From Candidatus Ghiorseimicrobium undicola (lineage in GTDB: Bacteria > Omnitrophota > Gorgyraeia > Ghiorseimicrobiales > Ghiorseimicrobiaceae), in assembly GCA_002796125.1 (NCBI GenBank), contig PCWA01000045.1, forward strand, positions 1 through 54,237: a DNA stretch of 54,237 nt, given 5' to 3'. The notes beneath the pieces are model-generated. The model made no database searches and was not told where the DNA came from. It saw only the letters and a program-made list of their open reading frames with translations. Position 1 is the first letter of the stretch; each line of letters starts with the position of its first letter. A program made the position numbers and the translations under genes. Shown here piece by piece: positions 12,171 through 33,900 of this stretch.

Positions 12171-13118
12171 CTATCCGAGCATATCTCCCTTTTTTATATC
12201 ATGGCCGGCAATAAAATCACGGACAGGCATGCGCCTTCCGCCTTCACATTGTAATTCTTTAATCGCGATTAACCCGTCAAAACAACGCACACATATTTCT
12301 CCAGAATCAATAAACACAATCTGCCCGGGCAACTGGTCAAACTGGCTATTAAAATTATCTTTAATACCTTTATGCGCTGCCTTATAAATCTTAAATACCC
12401 TGCCTTTAAAATAAGTATAAGCAACAGGCCAAGGAAGGAGCCCCCTAATCAAATTATAAATATCTTCTTTAGGCCTATCCCATCTTATCAAGCCGTTTTT
12501 CTTGGACAATTTAGGGGCATAAGAAGCCAACACATCTTCCTGGGGCGTCAGTTTGAACATTTTATTCTGTATCAAAACTATTGCCTCGATAATCATTTTT
12601 TTCGCCAGCTCTGAAAGCGCCACACTCAGGGTTTGGGCGTCATCATTTTCGGATATCGGGAGAGATTTTTTTAAAATAATCTCTCCCGTATCCACAAACT
12701 CATCCATTTTTATTATGCTAATCCCGGTTTCCTTCTCACCATTGATTATGGCCCAGTTAATCGGGGCAGCCCCCCTATATTTAGGAAGCAGCGAGGCATG
12801 GATATTAATCGAAAAAATCTTCGGCAGACTGATTATTCTTTCGGGCATAATAATACCGTACTGAACAACAATAAATAAATCCGCATCCAATGCTTTCAAA
12901 TAATTAAAAGCTGAGCTTCCGTTAAGGCCTGAGGGCTGGAATAGCGCAAGATTGTTTTCCAAGCAATAATCTTTTACGGGCGTCGCTCTCATCTTCAGGC
13001 GCCTTCCAGCTTTTTTATCCGGCTGGCTAACAACACAGACGATATCATGCCCGCAGGACAAAAGCTCCCGCAAGATTGGTATGGCGAATTTTCCGCTTGC
13101 AAAAAAAACAATACGCAT
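12171..13118 (-). CDS. fmt: Methionyl-tRNA formyltransferase
   Basis: Formylates initiator Met-tRNA using 10-formyltetrahydrofolate. The N-terminal domain is typical: MRIVFFASGKFAIPIL start, a PDKKAGRR segment, and NIHASLLPKYRGAAPINW with the catalytic His-containing motif. The C-terminal domain begins near LIRWDRPKEDIYNLIRG. From the ATG at 13118 it has 315 residues, the normal length. The open frame extends 22 codons upstream to 13184, but that extension consists of the heptad repeat and lacks homology, so I reject it. There is no clear ribosome site at 13118. It follows priA, a common pairing (priA-def-fmt), here without def. Confidence 0.95.
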   Translation of the reverse strand: MRIVFFASGKFAIPILRELLSCGHDIVCVVSQPDKKAGRRLKMRATPVKDYCLENNLALFQPSGLNGSSAFNYLKALDADLFIVVQYGIIMPERIISLPKIFSINIHASLLPKYRGAAPINWAIINGEKETGISIIKMDEFVDTGEIILKKSLPISENDDAQTLSVALSELAKKMIIEAIVLIQNKMFKLTPQEDVLASYAPKLSKKNGLIRWDRPKEDIYNLIRGLLPWPVAYTYFKGRVFKIYKAAHKGIKDNFNSQFDQLPGQIVFIDSGEICVRCFDGLIAIKELQCEGGRRMPVRDFIAGHDIKKGDMLG

Positions 13119-13124
13119 TTTTGG

Positions 13125-13196
13125 GTATTGAGTATCAAGTATTGAGTATTGCGTATTTTGAACTTCTTGGTACACGATACTCATTACTCAATACTT
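13125..13196. repeat. Heptad repeat tract forming an inverted pair between priA and fmt
   Basis: The left arm holds five 7-base units (GTATTGA, GTATCAA, GTATTGA, GTATTGC, GTATTTT at 13125-13159). The right arm holds three units in reverse orientation (GATACTC, ATTACTC, AATACTT at 13176-13196). The arms pair over 21 bases with three mismatches. The tract fills the whole priA-fmt gap and ends 6 bases before the fmt start, so it must form part of the fmt leader if the genes are co-transcribed. Confidence 0.65.
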
Positions 13197-28117: not shown

Positions 28118-29345
28118 CCTTGATTATCCTAGAAACTGCCTGTTGCAAGCCCAAAATAAACCAGAATAACACAGCTATGGGAAGCGAATAAAAATTAGTA
28201 TCAACAAAACTATTCAAGAGATAGGCGATTAGGCCGACAGTCAAGCCTAAAAGAGAAAAATAAAAGAATGATTTTTCCGGCTTCGCTAAAATTTGTAGGG
28301 TATTTTTAAGCCAGATATATAAAAATAGTAAAAATGTTAACAGGCCGAAGATGCCTGTTTCCGCCAAAGTCTGCAGATAGCAATTATGGGTATATGCTAT
28401 TTCAGTGGTTGGCCTAAGCCAAAATTTTGGATAATTTTCCATAAACGTCCCCAGCCCCACCCCAAAGGCCGGCTTGTCTATAAACATCCGTATTGCCGCC
28501 TGCCATAGAAACTTTCTGTCCATCGCTCCGACATCGTTTGAAAAAAGCATCATGCGTTTTATCAAATCAAAGGAAGAAAATTTAAAAAATACCGGCAAGG
28601 CAAACCCTATTGCTAATATGCCCGCTAAAACATACAGAAGATAGCGCTTTCGGCTAAATCGCCCCCAAAATAATAAAGCGAGCAAGAAGGCAAGCCAGGC
28701 GCCCTTAGAAAGCGTAAACATTAATATCGAGACGGCGCTTATCGCCAAAACTGCCAATGCCGTTTTTATTTTTTTACCAAGCCCGGAAAAAGCCAAGGAT
28801 AAGGCAAGCGGTATCGCGGTAATTAAATATGAACCAAGGTCATTAGGGTTGATAAACGAAGCAGTAACCCGCCCCTGGAATAATTTTCTGTGGCGGAATA
28901 AATCATACTTAAAAATGGCTTGAAAAAAGCCATCTAAACTTATAAAGAAAAGAGAGGATAAAAACGCATAAATGATAAATTTACACTGTGATTTTGACCT
29001 GATTGAATCCTTGGCAATAATAAAAATCAGGATATATTCGCTTAGCTTAAAAATTAAGGCGTTTACGCTTAGTTTCATGTTTGAACTGAATACGACAGCC
29101 AGAATATTCGCCAAAAAAAATAGAGTTAACGCGCCACCCAGCGAAAAATCCCCAAAGAGCATATTTGCCGCGCTTTTAAGCGGAATGGCTTTCCTGCCGG
29201 AGGTAAAAATAAAAACCTGTTTTAAAAACCAGGTAATTATGCAGACAACAGCCGAGAACTCGATGACCGCCTTGGAAATCGGCAGGAAAAAAATCATCAG
29301 TCCAAAAAAGAACGTAATAATTTTATCAAAAACGCTTAAGCCCAT
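28101..29345 (-). CDS. O-antigen ligase/polymerase family membrane protein
   Basis: A 414-residue protein of the Wzy_C/WaaL superfamily with about ten to twelve hydrophobic segments. The large periplasmic loop contains GVGLGTFMENYPKFW and AYTHNCYLQTLAETGIFGL, in which the H-NxYLQ-L-ETG pattern is the superfamily hallmark. It either joins O-units to lipid A-core or polymerises them; sequence alone cannot separate these. The open frame extends to a TTG at 29381, but the ATG at 29345 begins at the natural N-terminus (MGLSVFDKI) and overlaps the upstream gene by only 10 bases. Confidence 0.87.
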   Translation of the reverse strand: MGLSVFDKIITFFFGLMIFFLPISKAVIEFSAVVCIITWFLKQVFIFTSGRKAIPLKSAANMLFGDFSLGGALTLFFLANILAVVFSSNMKLSVNALIFKLSEYILIFIIAKDSIRSKSQCKFIIYAFLSSLFFISLDGFFQAIFKYDLFRHRKLFQGRVTASFINPNDLGSYLITAIPLALSLAFSGLGKKIKTALAVLAISAVSILMFTLSKGAWLAFLLALLFWGRFSRKRYLLYVLAGILAIGFALPVFFKFSSFDLIKRMMLFSNDVGAMDRKFLWQAAIRMFIDKPAFGVGLGTFMENYPKFWLRPTTEIAYTHNCYLQTLAETGIFGLLTFLLFLYIWLKNTLQILAKPEKSFFYFSLLGLTVGLIAYLLNSFVDTNFYSLPIAVLFWFILGLQQAVSRIIKDEEKV

Positions 29346-31177
29346 TTTTCTGTATCCATGATTTTTGCCAAGCTCCTGCAAGGGATTTTTAAAGACGCGC
29401 AGGCCTCCACTATATCTTTACAGTCTTCTTTTTTTAAAGACGGTACCGCTATAATGACTTCTTCCGCCCGGCTCTCTTTAACATAATACGCTAAATCCTG
29501 GCGCGCGCCTAAAATCTTTACGCCATGAATTTGCTTACCCTTCTTCTTTTTGTCATCATCGATAAATCCCACCGGTTTGTAATTCAAGTTTTTATTCGAT
29601 TTTATCTCCCGCAAAAATAACTCTCCGCAGGCGCCGGCGCCAAAAATCAAAATTTTACGCCCGGGCCTGTATTGCTGGAAATATTCCTCCAAAAAACGGA
29701 ACATAAATCTTGAAAAGGCGATAAAAAGAAGCGTAAGCAGCCAATCGATTATAAACACCACCCGCGAATGGTCTTTAAAACGGAAGATAAAGGTAATGAA
29801 TAATATGCTTAGCACGGAGCCGCCGCCTACCGCCTTAAAAACCGAAATAAAATCGCTGACACTCGTAAAATGCCGCATCCCCCTGTAAAGGCTGAAATAA
29901 TAAAAAACCGCAAGCTTAATCACGATAATCCACGGCAGGGAAGTTTTCAAAAGATTGTAATTATGATCGGATATAATACCATCGAAACGCAACAAGTATG
30001 CCGAGTAATAAGCTATACAAATCAGTAAAAAATCAATTATTATTGTTGCGATCTGGGCTTTATAAAGCAACAAGGTATTTAAAATCACCTTGCCTTCGGA
30101 TATTTTTTTCCTGCGCGCCGCCTCTATTTCCCGCTCGTTCGAATAGGTCTTCACTTCAGATAAAAACATTCCAAAGAAAACCAAGACAACTATAACCAAG
30201 GTCACTAAAACAGTCACGACTAAAATATTTAATCTTGAATAGGCAAGCGCGACCGATCCGAATATTATACTTATCGCGTATAACAACAGCACTGTCTTTT
30301 TTTCGCTTAAGCCCAAAGATACGAGGCGATGCGAGGCATGATCCTTGCCGCCTTGCAGTATTGAGCGGCCGTTAATACTGCGCATAAAAGTTACCAAGGC
30401 GGTATCGAATATAGGTACCGCCAAAATCAAAACCGGCACCGCCAAAGTAACCAAGATGTTGGAAAATGTCCTGGCACTCGTTCCCATCAAAGCGACCGAT
30501 GAAATAGCGAAGCCCAAAAACATACTCCCTGAATCCCCCATGAAAATTTTAGCCGGATTAAAATTAAAAGGGATAAACCCTAAACAAGCCCCTGCTAAAA
30601 CGACGGCCAAGAAAGGAATCGTGATATTGCCGATTAGAATCCCCGAGGAAAATAACATAATCGAAGTAATCCCGGCAATCCCGGCGCAAAGCCCGTCCAT
30701 ATTATCCAAAAGGTTAAAAGCGTTGGTAATGCCGATAATCCATAGTATTGTAACGGGAAAAATCAATAAATCTATCGGCTTAGATAACGCCTGCGGAAGG
30801 AGGGCTAGATAATCCGGGTTTGGTTTAATGAGAATCCCAAAATAAACCACAATACAACTTGCGATTATTTGAAATAATATCTTTACCTGGGGGGGTAATT
30901 TCTTAAGGTCATCGATAATACCGCAAATAAATATTATGGAAGAGCCGATGAGAAAACCGATAATCTGCCTATTACTAAAACCAAAAATATATATCAGCGG
31001 AATAATCACCGCCAGAAATATCGCTACCCCGCCAAAAATAGCCGTTGGATTCTTATGCCAGCGGTCATCTTTGGGAAAAGACACAAAATTTAACCTTAAG
31101 GCAATCTTTCTGACCAAGGGTGTCAATAAAAATGAAATACAAAACGCGCTTAAAAATAATTCGATATATCGATTCAT
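29336..31177 (-). CDS. Fusion: WecA-like sugar-phosphate transferase + CapD/FlaA1-type membrane and Rossmann domain
   Basis: 613 residues in two halves. The first (about 1-340) is a polyprenyl-phosphate sugar-1-phosphate transferase of the MraY/WecA family: ITNAFNLLDNMDGLCAG (NxDG motif), KIFMGDSGSMFLG (metal Asp) and GGKDHASHRLVSLGLS. It would start glycan synthesis on a lipid carrier. The second half has four further hydrophobic segments (near LRFDGIISDHN) and a Rossmann domain starting KILIFGAGACGELFLREI, as in the N-part of CapD/FlaA1/WbpM, but it ends before any catalytic SDR domain. It is followed by the ligase and preceded by an epimerase with 4-base overlap. Confidence 0.88.
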   Translation of the reverse strand: MNRYIELFLSAFCISFLLTPLVRKIALRLNFVSFPKDDRWHKNPTAIFGGVAIFLAVIIPLIYIFGFSNRQIIGFLIGSSIIFICGIIDDLKKLPPQVKILFQIIASCIVVYFGILIKPNPDYLALLPQALSKPIDLLIFPVTILWIIGITNAFNLLDNMDGLCAGIAGITSIMLFSSGILIGNITIPFLAVVLAGACLGFIPFNFNPAKIFMGDSGSMFLGFAISSVALMGTSARTFSNILVTLAVPVLILAVPIFDTALVTFMRSINGRSILQGGKDHASHRLVSLGLSEKKTVLLLYAISIIFGSVALAYSRLNILVVTVLVTLVIVVLVFFGMFLSEVKTYSNEREIEAARRKKISEGKVILNTLLLYKAQIATIIIDFLLICIAYYSAYLLRFDGIISDHNYNLLKTSLPWIIVIKLAVFYYFSLYRGMRHFTSVSDFISVFKAVGGGSVLSILFITFIFRFKDHSRVVFIIDWLLTLLFIAFSRFMFRFLEEYFQQYRPGRKILIFGAGACGELFLREIKSNKNLNYKPVGFIDDDKKKKGKQIHGVKILGARQDLAYYVKESRAEEVIIAVPSLKKEDCKDIVEACASLKIPCRSLAKIMDTEKWA

Positions 31178-32174: not shown

Positions 32175-33359
32175 TTAATTTAACAAAATATTATACAGCA
32201 TTTCCATGTCTTTGATTAGTCTTTTCTTGTCAAATCTTTCCCGCACAAACTCCCTGCCATCCTCCGCCATCTTTTTGCGTAATTTAATATCTTTCGCCAA
32301 AGCTATCAACCCCTGTGTGAAACTTTCTGTATCCTGCGATTTAACTAAAACGCCCCGCTCACAAATTTCGTAACTCGTAACTCGTAAGTCATAAGTCGAA
32401 AGTAAATCTTTCACTCCTCCTACATCGCTGGCGATTACCGCCCGTGCCGATGCCAAGGCCTCGATTATCGAAACCGGCGTGCCTTCATTTAGCGAAGTAA
32501 GAGCGATGATATCTAAGTTTTCATATACGGCGGCTAAATCGCTCTGCCAACCCGAGAATTCAACTTTATCCGCGATACCCAGCTTTTTAGCATATGATTC
32601 TAACTGCGGCCTTAACTCGCCATCGCCAATAATAAAAAATTGTATTGAGCATGGAGTATTGGGTATTGAGTTCAAAAATAACCTCGCGGCATCAAAGAAC
32701 ATCTCGTGGTTTTTTATCGGGACCAACCTGCCGACTATGCCAATATTCAACTCCTGATTTGCCTCCCTGGGCTTAATGACAAGGAATTTATCTAATTCAA
32801 ATCCCAAATGAACGACTTTAATCTTTGCTTGATCAGAGATACCCAATGATAATATGTCTTGCTTGACTCCTTCGCTGACAACTATGATTAAATCGGTAAA
32901 TCGCGCCAGGATTCTTTCAACCCAAATAAAAAATATTGTCGAAACCCTGCTAAAATACCCGCTTAAGACATGCCCGTGGAAGGTGTGGACTGTTTTTATC
33001 TTTTTTCTATGCGTTAAGTTAAACAAGGCTGCGGATAAACGCCCAAGTGTTCCGGCTTTTGCGGTATGTGTATGGACAATATCAGGGCGATACTCATTTA
33101 TCTGTTTATATATTTTATAAAAAGCAGCGATATCGCTAAAGAGGTTGATATTGCGCCCAAGCTGCGGAATAACCACCGGCTGTATATTTTTTTCCTGCGC
33201 GAGATAAGACATATCGCCTTCATCCTTATCTATCCTGCCAACGATAAGGCGCGAATTGAATCTATCCTTGCCTAAACCGTCTGTCAGCAGTATCGCGTTT
33301 ATTGCCGGGCCTCCGATGTTAAGACGGGCGATTATCCTTAAGATTCTTATTTTCTCCAT
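32175..33359 (-). CDS. Family 4 glycosyltransferase carrying two heptad-repeat insertions
   Basis: A GT-B enzyme of 394 residues. The N-domain includes IGGPAINAILLTDGL and VHTHTAKAGTLGRL; the C-domain includes IGIVGRLVPIKNHEMFFDAA, DIIALTSLNEGTPVSIIEAL (the E-x7-E-type donor motif) and VIASDVGGVKDLL. Two stretches look foreign: residues about 228-239 (NSIPNTPCSIQ, in place of a short turn before FFIIGDGEL) and about 320-331 (TYDLRVTSYEI, within the loop after the VGG motif). Both are encoded by perfect 7-base-period tracts. The reading frame survives, so these insertions were tolerated or repaired. It follows DUF4330-type genes and precedes the SDR gene. Confidence 0.9.
   Translation of the reverse strand: MEKIRILRIIARLNIGGPAINAILLTDGLGKDRFNSRLIVGRIDKDEGDMSYLAQEKNIQPVVIPQLGRNINLFSDIAAFYKIYKQINEYRPDIVHTHTAKAGTLGRLSAALFNLTHRKKIKTVHTFHGHVLSGYFSRVSTIFFIWVERILARFTDLIIVVSEGVKQDILSLGISDQAKIKVVHLGFELDKFLVIKPREANQELNIGIVGRLVPIKNHEMFFDAARLFLNSIPNTPCSIQFFIIGDGELRPQLESYAKKLGIADKVEFSGWQSDLAAVYENLDIIALTSLNEGTPVSIIEALASARAVIASDVGGVKDLLSTYDLRVTSYEICERGVLVKSQDTESFTQGLIALAKDIKLRKKMAEDGREFVRERFDKKRLIKDMEMLYNILLN
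32368..32402. repeat. Intragenic heptad repeat (TCGTAAC type)
   Basis: Five units in phase: TCGTAAC, TCGTAAC, TCGTAAG, TCATAAG, TCGAAAG. On the coding strand they give TYDLRVTSYE in the GT4 gene. The unit differs from the GTATTGA type. Confidence 0.7.
32642..32676. repeat. Intragenic heptad repeat (GTATTGA type)
   Basis: Five units in phase: GTATTGA, GCATGGA, GTATTGG, GTATTGA, GTTCAAA. The unit is the same as in the priA-fmt gap (13125-13196), 19 kb away. It is read as NSIPNTPCSIQ in the GT4 gene. Confidence 0.7.
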
Positions 33360-33900
33360 AGCGTAAAATAAAACTTGTCTTCTTTAGTGTTTGCCAATCC
33401 GCGTTGCAGGTTATGGCGAAAAACGCCGGAACTAAAAATATCAAACGGGCCCACAATCCCCATAAACTTACACCTGCGCCCAAGATAATAATCAGGATAA
33501 AATTAGCAAAAACTGCCGTAACCGCGATGATACCCATTGCTCTTAACGGAACATAACAAAATATTCCCCGGGCATGCACGGCGCCAGAGGCAAAAAAACT
33601 ATCACGAAAATAACCGCGGCTTTTGAGCTTTGCGTTTTTGACCGATGCGGCCAGGCTGCTATTATTTAAAATTAAAAGGTTGCCATCATCTTGCCTTATC
33701 CGGCTGATTCTTTCAAAAAAACTATATTTAATATATATTTTTATATTTTTGAAGAAAACCCGCGCGGTTTTAAAAATACGGCTTCCTGAACTTAGTCGCC
33801 CGGATACCTGTTCTATTTTATCAGGATAAATTTTAAACAGGTATTTAGCGATATTAAAAGAAACGCTGGTATTTAAAATCTGCTCTTTACTATATTTCAT
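33319..33900 (-). CDS. Unassigned small membrane protein (193 aa)
   Basis: I do not recognise the family. The N-terminal 110 residues are polar and basic. Two hydrophobic segments follow (about 119-142, AMGIIAVTAVFANFILIIIL, and about 147-165). The C-terminal tail ends in polar residues. Its start codon overlaps the stop of the DUF4330-like gene in a TAATG arrangement, and its end overlaps the GT4 gene by 41 bases, so all three are probably translated together. A membrane role in glycan export or assembly is a guess from context. Confidence 0.7.
   Translation of the reverse strand: MKYSKEQILNTSVSFNIAKYLFKIYPDKIEQVSGRLSSGSRIFKTARVFFKNIKIYIKYSFFERISRIRQDDGNLLILNNSSLAASVKNAKLKSRGYFRDSFFASGAVHARGIFCYVPLRAMGIIAVTAVFANFILIIILGAGVSLWGLWARLIFLVPAFFAITCNADWQTLKKTSFILRYGENKNLKDNRPS

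Follow-up and report, generated by a model that had tools for sequence, protein, structure and literature searches.

How do two stretches of heptameric repeat come to lie in frame within a single glycosyltransferase gene, when seven is not a multiple of three? The question is posed by a 54,237-nucleotide stretch of DNA from Candidatus Ghiorseimicrobium undicola (Omnitrophota), which was analysed at its full length (hereafter, the window) and corresponds to C47, one complete contig of a draft genome of 1.83 Mb in 115 contigs. Three features on the minus strand define the locus.

32175..33359, minus strand: gene of a GT4-family glycosyltransferase, 394 aa (ORF; Pfam; solved GT4 homologues)
32368..32403, minus strand: heptad tract A, about five degenerate units, encoding most of TYDLRVTSYEI (TRF; insertion relative to orthologues)
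32640..32676, minus strand: heptad tract B, degenerate TACNCAA-type units, encoding NSIPNTPCSIQ (unit match; loops of sister genomes)

The glycosyltransferase gene and its two tracts

The GT4 protein has two Pfam domains, Glyco_transf_4 (residues 16–190) and Glycos_transf_1 (residues 199–370). Both peptides singled out in the first-pass annotation are indeed encoded in this one gene, TYDLRVTSYEI at residues 322–332 (codons 32364–32396) and NSIPNTPCSIQ at residues 230–240 (window positions 32640–32672), and the comparison with orthologues confirms that they occupy short, variable loops of the family and that the orthologues do not share their residues. The description of each segment as the product of a perfect 7-base tract fails: tract A is degenerate, with offset-7 self-matches at 25 of 29 positions, and tract B is weak (18 of 28, at 32642–32676). 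The AlphaFold model of the GT4 protein alone had a mean pLDDT of 40 and was left unused. Two other ORFs with glycosyltransferase-type domains have domain arrangements of their own: ORF 29336–31177 joins a Glycos_transf_4 domain to CoA_binding_3, an unexpected fusion, and in ORF 35231–37102 matches to the GT4 C-terminal domain are followed by a DUF218 domain.

Period 7 is nowhere stronger in the window than in tract A (TRF: period 7, 5.1 copies, 86%), whose sense units are ACTTTCG, ACTTATG, ACTTACG, AGTTACG and AGTTACG. The tract is beyond chance: five order-5 Markov resamples of 785 kb of this genome each contained 0 or 1 period-7 tracts at score 12. In the alignment of 17 GT4 orthologues, it is an insertion of approximately 10 residues relative to the bare loops of class-level orthologues, and of 4 residues relative to the two closest sister genomes.

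Tract B, with the sense units AACTCAA, TACCCAA, TACTCCA and TGCTCAA, is weak as a repeat when taken on its own, and chance could account for its periodicity: it falls under the tract score threshold, and it does no better than the best stretches of several other periods in the window. It is accepted here because its TACNCAA unit belongs to a genome-wide family and because the sister genomes carry a perfect tract of another unit at exactly this loop. Tract B contains two overlapping matches, with 1 mismatch, to a tandem TTGNGTA pair, a pattern with 73 matches in the genome at no more than one mismatch, compared with 21 for the reversed pattern; in both closest orthologues (65–66% identical), the loop is encoded by a perfect 32-nt CCGAACC tract of 4.5 copies.

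A genome-wide excess of period-7 tracts

The period scan covered 785 kb in 11 contigs (43% of the genome) and yielded 55 period-7 tracts at score 12, whereas every other period, the harmonics 14 and 21 excepted, gave 1 to 7 tracts; the counts of this period spectrum included two runs of N, both of which were dropped from the 55. No period-7 tract was detected in 200 kb of Escherichia coli K-12. Three relatives have 11 such tracts (in 280 kb), 5 (in 120 kb) and 8 (in 400 kb), respectively, and the genomes with an excess include the single-contig G026. Additionally, 80 named loci, chosen for carrying a TACTCAA run, have 43 further period-7 tracts in their masked flanks, distributed over 29 of the loci, as compared with 0 to 11 tracts for each of the other periods from 3 to 13. 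Among the matches listed, the records with a TACTCAA run come from Bacteroidetes, Ignavibacteria, Omnitrophota, Patescibacteria, Akkermansiaceae, Planctomycetota and others; TACTCAA runs are present in many Bacteroidota. Given its recurrence in the relatives and in the flanks of the named loci, the excess of period 7 is a general feature of the lineage.

The tracts are far from uniform in sequence but fall within a restricted range of lengths, 18–39 nt with a mode near 31 nt and none longer than 39 nt in the sample of this genome; the usual tract has some four and a half units (25–39 nt). This distribution is narrower than simple slippage would suggest. Intergenic tract lengths concentrate at residues 3–4 modulo 7 (21 of 29, the residue having been chosen after the data were seen), and genic lengths do not cluster there (8 of 30); the corresponding numbers are 14 of 28 in the relatives (p 0.015) and 19 of 54 in the named genomes, the latter not significant. 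Such clustering, replicated only in part, is suggestive of growth from a microhomology of 3–4 bases.

Tracts within genes

The set at score ≥11 comprises 59 tracts, of which 30 lie entirely within called genes and the other 29 are intergenic in whole or in part, the gene calls coming from a simple script that missed at least one ORF (33319–33900). Genes contain 43 tracts per Mb versus 327 per Mb outside, a density 7.6 times lower. The curated families with a tract inside include PrmC, ArgS, HisF, HemB, GltA, PurL (with three tracts), PurM, RnfC, YggS, RecG, TruA, fumarase and NAD(P)H-hydrate dehydratase; other genic tracts lie at N-termini, where two of them form hydrophobic leader segments. 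Two tracts in one gene are unexceptional in this genome: apart from the three in PurL, two other genes have two.

Whichever of the three frames of a strand is read, a heptad array encodes, as a matter of arithmetic, one and the same seven-residue peptide, and therefore, the phase of an inserted tract is irrelevant and its orientation matters. The orientation is indeed biased: the sense-strand consensus unit is free of stop codons in 26 of the 30 genic tracts, and where only a single orientation is stop-free, it is the sense orientation in 18 cases and the antisense in 1. The mean tract length is virtually the same in genes and outside (30.2 and 30.1 nt, respectively). The net change in protein length relative to solved homologues ranges from 0 residues in fumarase and PrmC, through +3 in YggS and +7 in TruA, to +9 in HisF and +10 in HemB; a tract thus often replaces loop sequence instead of purely adding to it. 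A fixed 21-nt insertion rule was considered and rejected, given that the lengths of all 30 genic tracts differ from any multiple of 21 by more than 1 nt and that the net changes vary.

Because the lengths are equal, genes are depleted and the sense orientation is favoured, survival in frame needs nothing beyond purifying selection, and purifying selection acting on random events explains the genic pattern without an insertion rule. The earlier argument that two in-frame tracts in one gene imply either selection or an insertion rule is partly supported, the insertion rule being unnecessary.

A third tract in the window was counted as genic and illustrates the dependence of these numbers on gene starts.

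13121..13157, minus strand: third heptad tract (TACNCAA-type units), a few bases 5' of the probable fmt start (period-7 scan)
13177..13195, plus strand: inverted heptad partner of the 13121–13157 tract, a possible stem-loop (TRF; inverted-partner scan)

The Pfam domain Formyl_trans_N starts at residue 23 of the called ORF 12171–13184, and the tract probably lies upstream of the actual start; moving it would give 29 genic and 30 intergenic tracts. The position of the tract with its partner (13116–13195) resembles that reported for the TAACTGA repeats discussed below.

The loops that carry tracts in this genome also carry them, with other units, in orthologues. The orthologues examined, out of the other genomes with a match, numbered 17 of 38 for GT4, 18 of 32 for PurL (the set L288–L305, more distant PurL matches being left out), 29 of 38 for RecG and 29 of 37 for ArgS; PurL was picked for its three tracts, and RecG and ArgS, with one tract each, were added as further tests. 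In PurL, 12 of the 14 orthologue tracts fall in the three loops that bear tracts in this genome, which make up 7.1% of the protein; the same holds for 2 of 3 tracts in RecG (3.3% of the protein), the only tract in ArgS (4.2%) and both tracts in GT4 (9.4%), these last representing one event common to two sisters. Pooled over the four genes, 17 of 20 orthologue tracts are in loops used here. Periods 5, 6, 8–11 and 13 gave no tracts in the RecG and ArgS orthologues. Many GT4 and PurL orthologues have bare loops at the tract sites. In the PurL of genome G001 (L288), the third loop contains a period-8 array, with AAAGAGTC repeated about four times, where the relatives have period 7. The PurL at L081:8751–11678 has PurS-like matches at its N-terminus (residues 4–73 and 83–149), which suggests that this protein may be a PurS–PurL fusion.

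Origin of the tracts and their place among known repeats

The two GT4 segments are best interpreted as coding members of a genome-wide population of degenerate heptamer repeats that results from a period-7-specific process and selection, with no insertion rule involved, a reading to which we assign a probability of roughly 0.7. The short, degenerate heptameric tandem repeats arise by a process strongly specific for period 7, most plausibly strand slippage or tandem duplication that would be seeded at short microhomology and proceed for a few rounds, and the units would drift after the repeat has grown. The process would strike everywhere, with gene-breaking tracts removed by selection. An array with a stop-free sense unit stays open in any phase because 7 and 3 share no factor, and the surviving genic tracts are in frame and in the stop-free orientation, at sites that tolerate them: loops, termini, signal peptides or transmembrane segments. 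Related species have these loops hit anew, with a different unit, and neither a gene-specific insertion rule nor a loop-diversifying function would be required.

The distribution of the units is a difficulty for the version of this process that operates in place. When unit sharing is counted with one tract per kb and the expectation is obtained by letter permutation, 38 of the 1128 tract pairs in this genome have identical units compared with 3.7 expected (maximum 9 in 100), and these pairs involve unlinked loci, so that in-place slippage leaves the shared exact units unexplained. In G026, 4 of 28 pairs are identical versus 0.08 expected; G003 (11 tracts, 1 of 55 pairs versus 0.16) and G001 (4 tracts, 0 of 6 pairs) are samples too small to tell. 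Between genomes, there are no identical pairs with G026 (0 of 384) or G001 (0 of 192), and 4 of 528 with G003 (0.9 expected, maximum 4). The sequence TACTCAATACTCAATAC occurs in 10 of the 384 genomes of a phylum-wide sample, 5 times in this genome and 19 times in G364, and is absent from all three same-family genomes. Units are thus shared within genomes and hardly between them: the period is general, and the word looks private.

These observations, along with the narrow length distribution, are what would be expected if a few heptad words per genome were templated into many loci in trans, by the copying of a repeat-bearing RNA or DNA at breaks or by template switching between tracts, with only the tolerated copies remaining in genes. 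However, neither a template nor an enzyme nor a target-site signature was identified; constraints of base composition, codons or hairpins could bias the choice of units, and G003 and G001, with their few tracts, provide no clear internal sharing. Copying in trans is, accordingly, a serious possibility but an unlikely one. Its fullest formulation, in which each genome would possess a private heptad vocabulary that trans-acting machinery writes, about four and a half copies at a time, into many unlinked loci, including frame-compatible loops of essential enzymes, such that the period and length are conserved across species and the word is not, is more tentative still.

Two further observations concern the units themselves. 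Across 83 copies of TACNCAA, the main unit, the third base is constant and any of the four bases occurs at the fourth position, and 19 tracts in this genome have at least three bases at one phase (7.9 expected); a hypervariable position in every unit was nevertheless rejected as a general property, being absent in the relatives (2 versus 2.4) and in the named genomes (13 versus 10.5). The intergenic array L076:8134–8215 (C34:28134–28215) passes from GTATTGA through AATTAAA to AATCAAG units in an unbroken 7-base register, and looks as if unit families arise from one another along arrays.

An inverted heptad partner is present within 120 nt of 15 of the 29 intergenic tracts, compared with 4 of 177 random flanks, and such partners point to hairpin-related synthesis or function. 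They would also fit mobile palindromic mini-elements, with single arms left in genes, along the lines of the Rickettsia palindromic elements, which, in the accessible part of the literature, are 105–150 bp long, belong to defined families, and are found in frame in conserved genes, where they are thought to be tolerated. The tracts described here are likewise in frame in conserved genes but are heptad arrays of about 31 nt and are not palindromic in genes; only 4 of the 30 genic tracts have an inverted partner (one of these being the tract that is probably upstream of fmt), no conserved element is seen beyond the heptads, and the arms differ in unit and length. An origin from mini-elements is accordingly improbable.

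Selection for loop diversity, which the first-pass annotation had raised, or on/off switching by ±7 nt as in contingency loci, is compatible with the different units in the same loops of orthologues and with the arithmetic by which each gain or loss of one unit would shift the frame. Among the relatives searched, the nearest are of the same family, and none is a second genome of the genus. The hosts, however, are housekeeping enzymes (PurL, ArgS, RecG, HemB, TruA and HisF), not surface antigens, the tracts are depleted in genes, and many orthologues manage with bare loops, which makes this explanation quite improbable: diversification of loops between species literally occurs, and an adaptive value for it finds no support here. 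Finally, the draft state of the genome in 115 contigs and the weakness of tract B alone, which persists, would agree with an assembly or annotation artefact or chance periodicity, but for the population as a whole this reading is refuted by recurrence across genomes, including the single-contig G026, and by the tracts in orthologous loops of independent assemblies, and is barely credible.

The preferred reading, a period-7-specific process filtered by selection, places these tracts close to several known repeats. The STRR heptamers of heterocyst-forming cyanobacteria are seven-base units present in a few tandem copies at many dispersed loci, mainly outside coding sequence, and were reportedly located inside a structural RNA gene by Vioque in 1997. 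The tracts analysed here resemble STRR in that the unit is exactly seven bases in two or more tandem copies, a few as a rule, and in that many dispersed loci have common units. They differ in the units and in the lineage, and in-frame use of STRR in many conserved enzymes was not found in the accessible portion of the STRR literature. With respect to the lineage, RecG is 55% and 46% identical to the proteins of two named Omnitrophota versus no more than 41% for the nine genomes tested from other groups, none of them cyanobacterial; this makes Omnitrophota the likely phylum and speaks indirectly against a cyanobacterial lineage.

In most genomes of an earlier survey, as described in PMC4679880, heptanucleotides are the most frequent class of long repeats. 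The same source, to the extent accessible, reports the TAACTGA direct repeats of marine Beggiatoaceae, with 2–6 copies per set, often just 5' of start codons and patchy across phyla, as a single conserved, mostly intergenic unit that reads forward as LITDN-stop, related heptamers being rare as repeats (PMC4679880). By contrast, the present tracts have many units, with a variable position in the main one, and half of them are in genes; no rotation or complement of TAACTGA is among the 59 consensus units. The GGGAATC and GGGGA(C/T)T repeats of Xanthomonas and Nostoc, as presented in the accessible part of their description, have variable positions and 2–26 units and are dispersed near gene ends, but are G-rich, form G-quadruplexes and are under-represented in coding regions (PMC4692102), whereas most of the present tracts are A/T-rich, and those between genes are hairpin-like. 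The tandem repeats of Borgs, according to the accessible sections of their report, occur both inside genes and between them, reappear in homologous proteins and are genome-specific, with all units in ORFs divisible by three (PMC9879509), unlike the unit of seven in 30 genic tracts here. Titles and abstract openings, with subscription journals mostly outside the search, yielded no description of conserved enzymes with heptad tracts in this lineage. Overall, these tracts look like a variant of heptameric short tandem repeats in which the recurrent coding use and the genome-specific words look new.

Heptamer repeat formation would then represent a common and little-studied mutational process that repeatedly rebuilds the loops of conserved enzymes. 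The same loop, filled in several species with different words, provides natural replicates, and two questions become testable: why the unit is seven, and how unlinked loci in one genome come to share units. There is also a warning, which bears on annotation, on structure prediction and on the reading of insertions in conserved domains: where a protein of an uncultured bacterium has a loop insertion, this can be repeat DNA rather than a functional motif.
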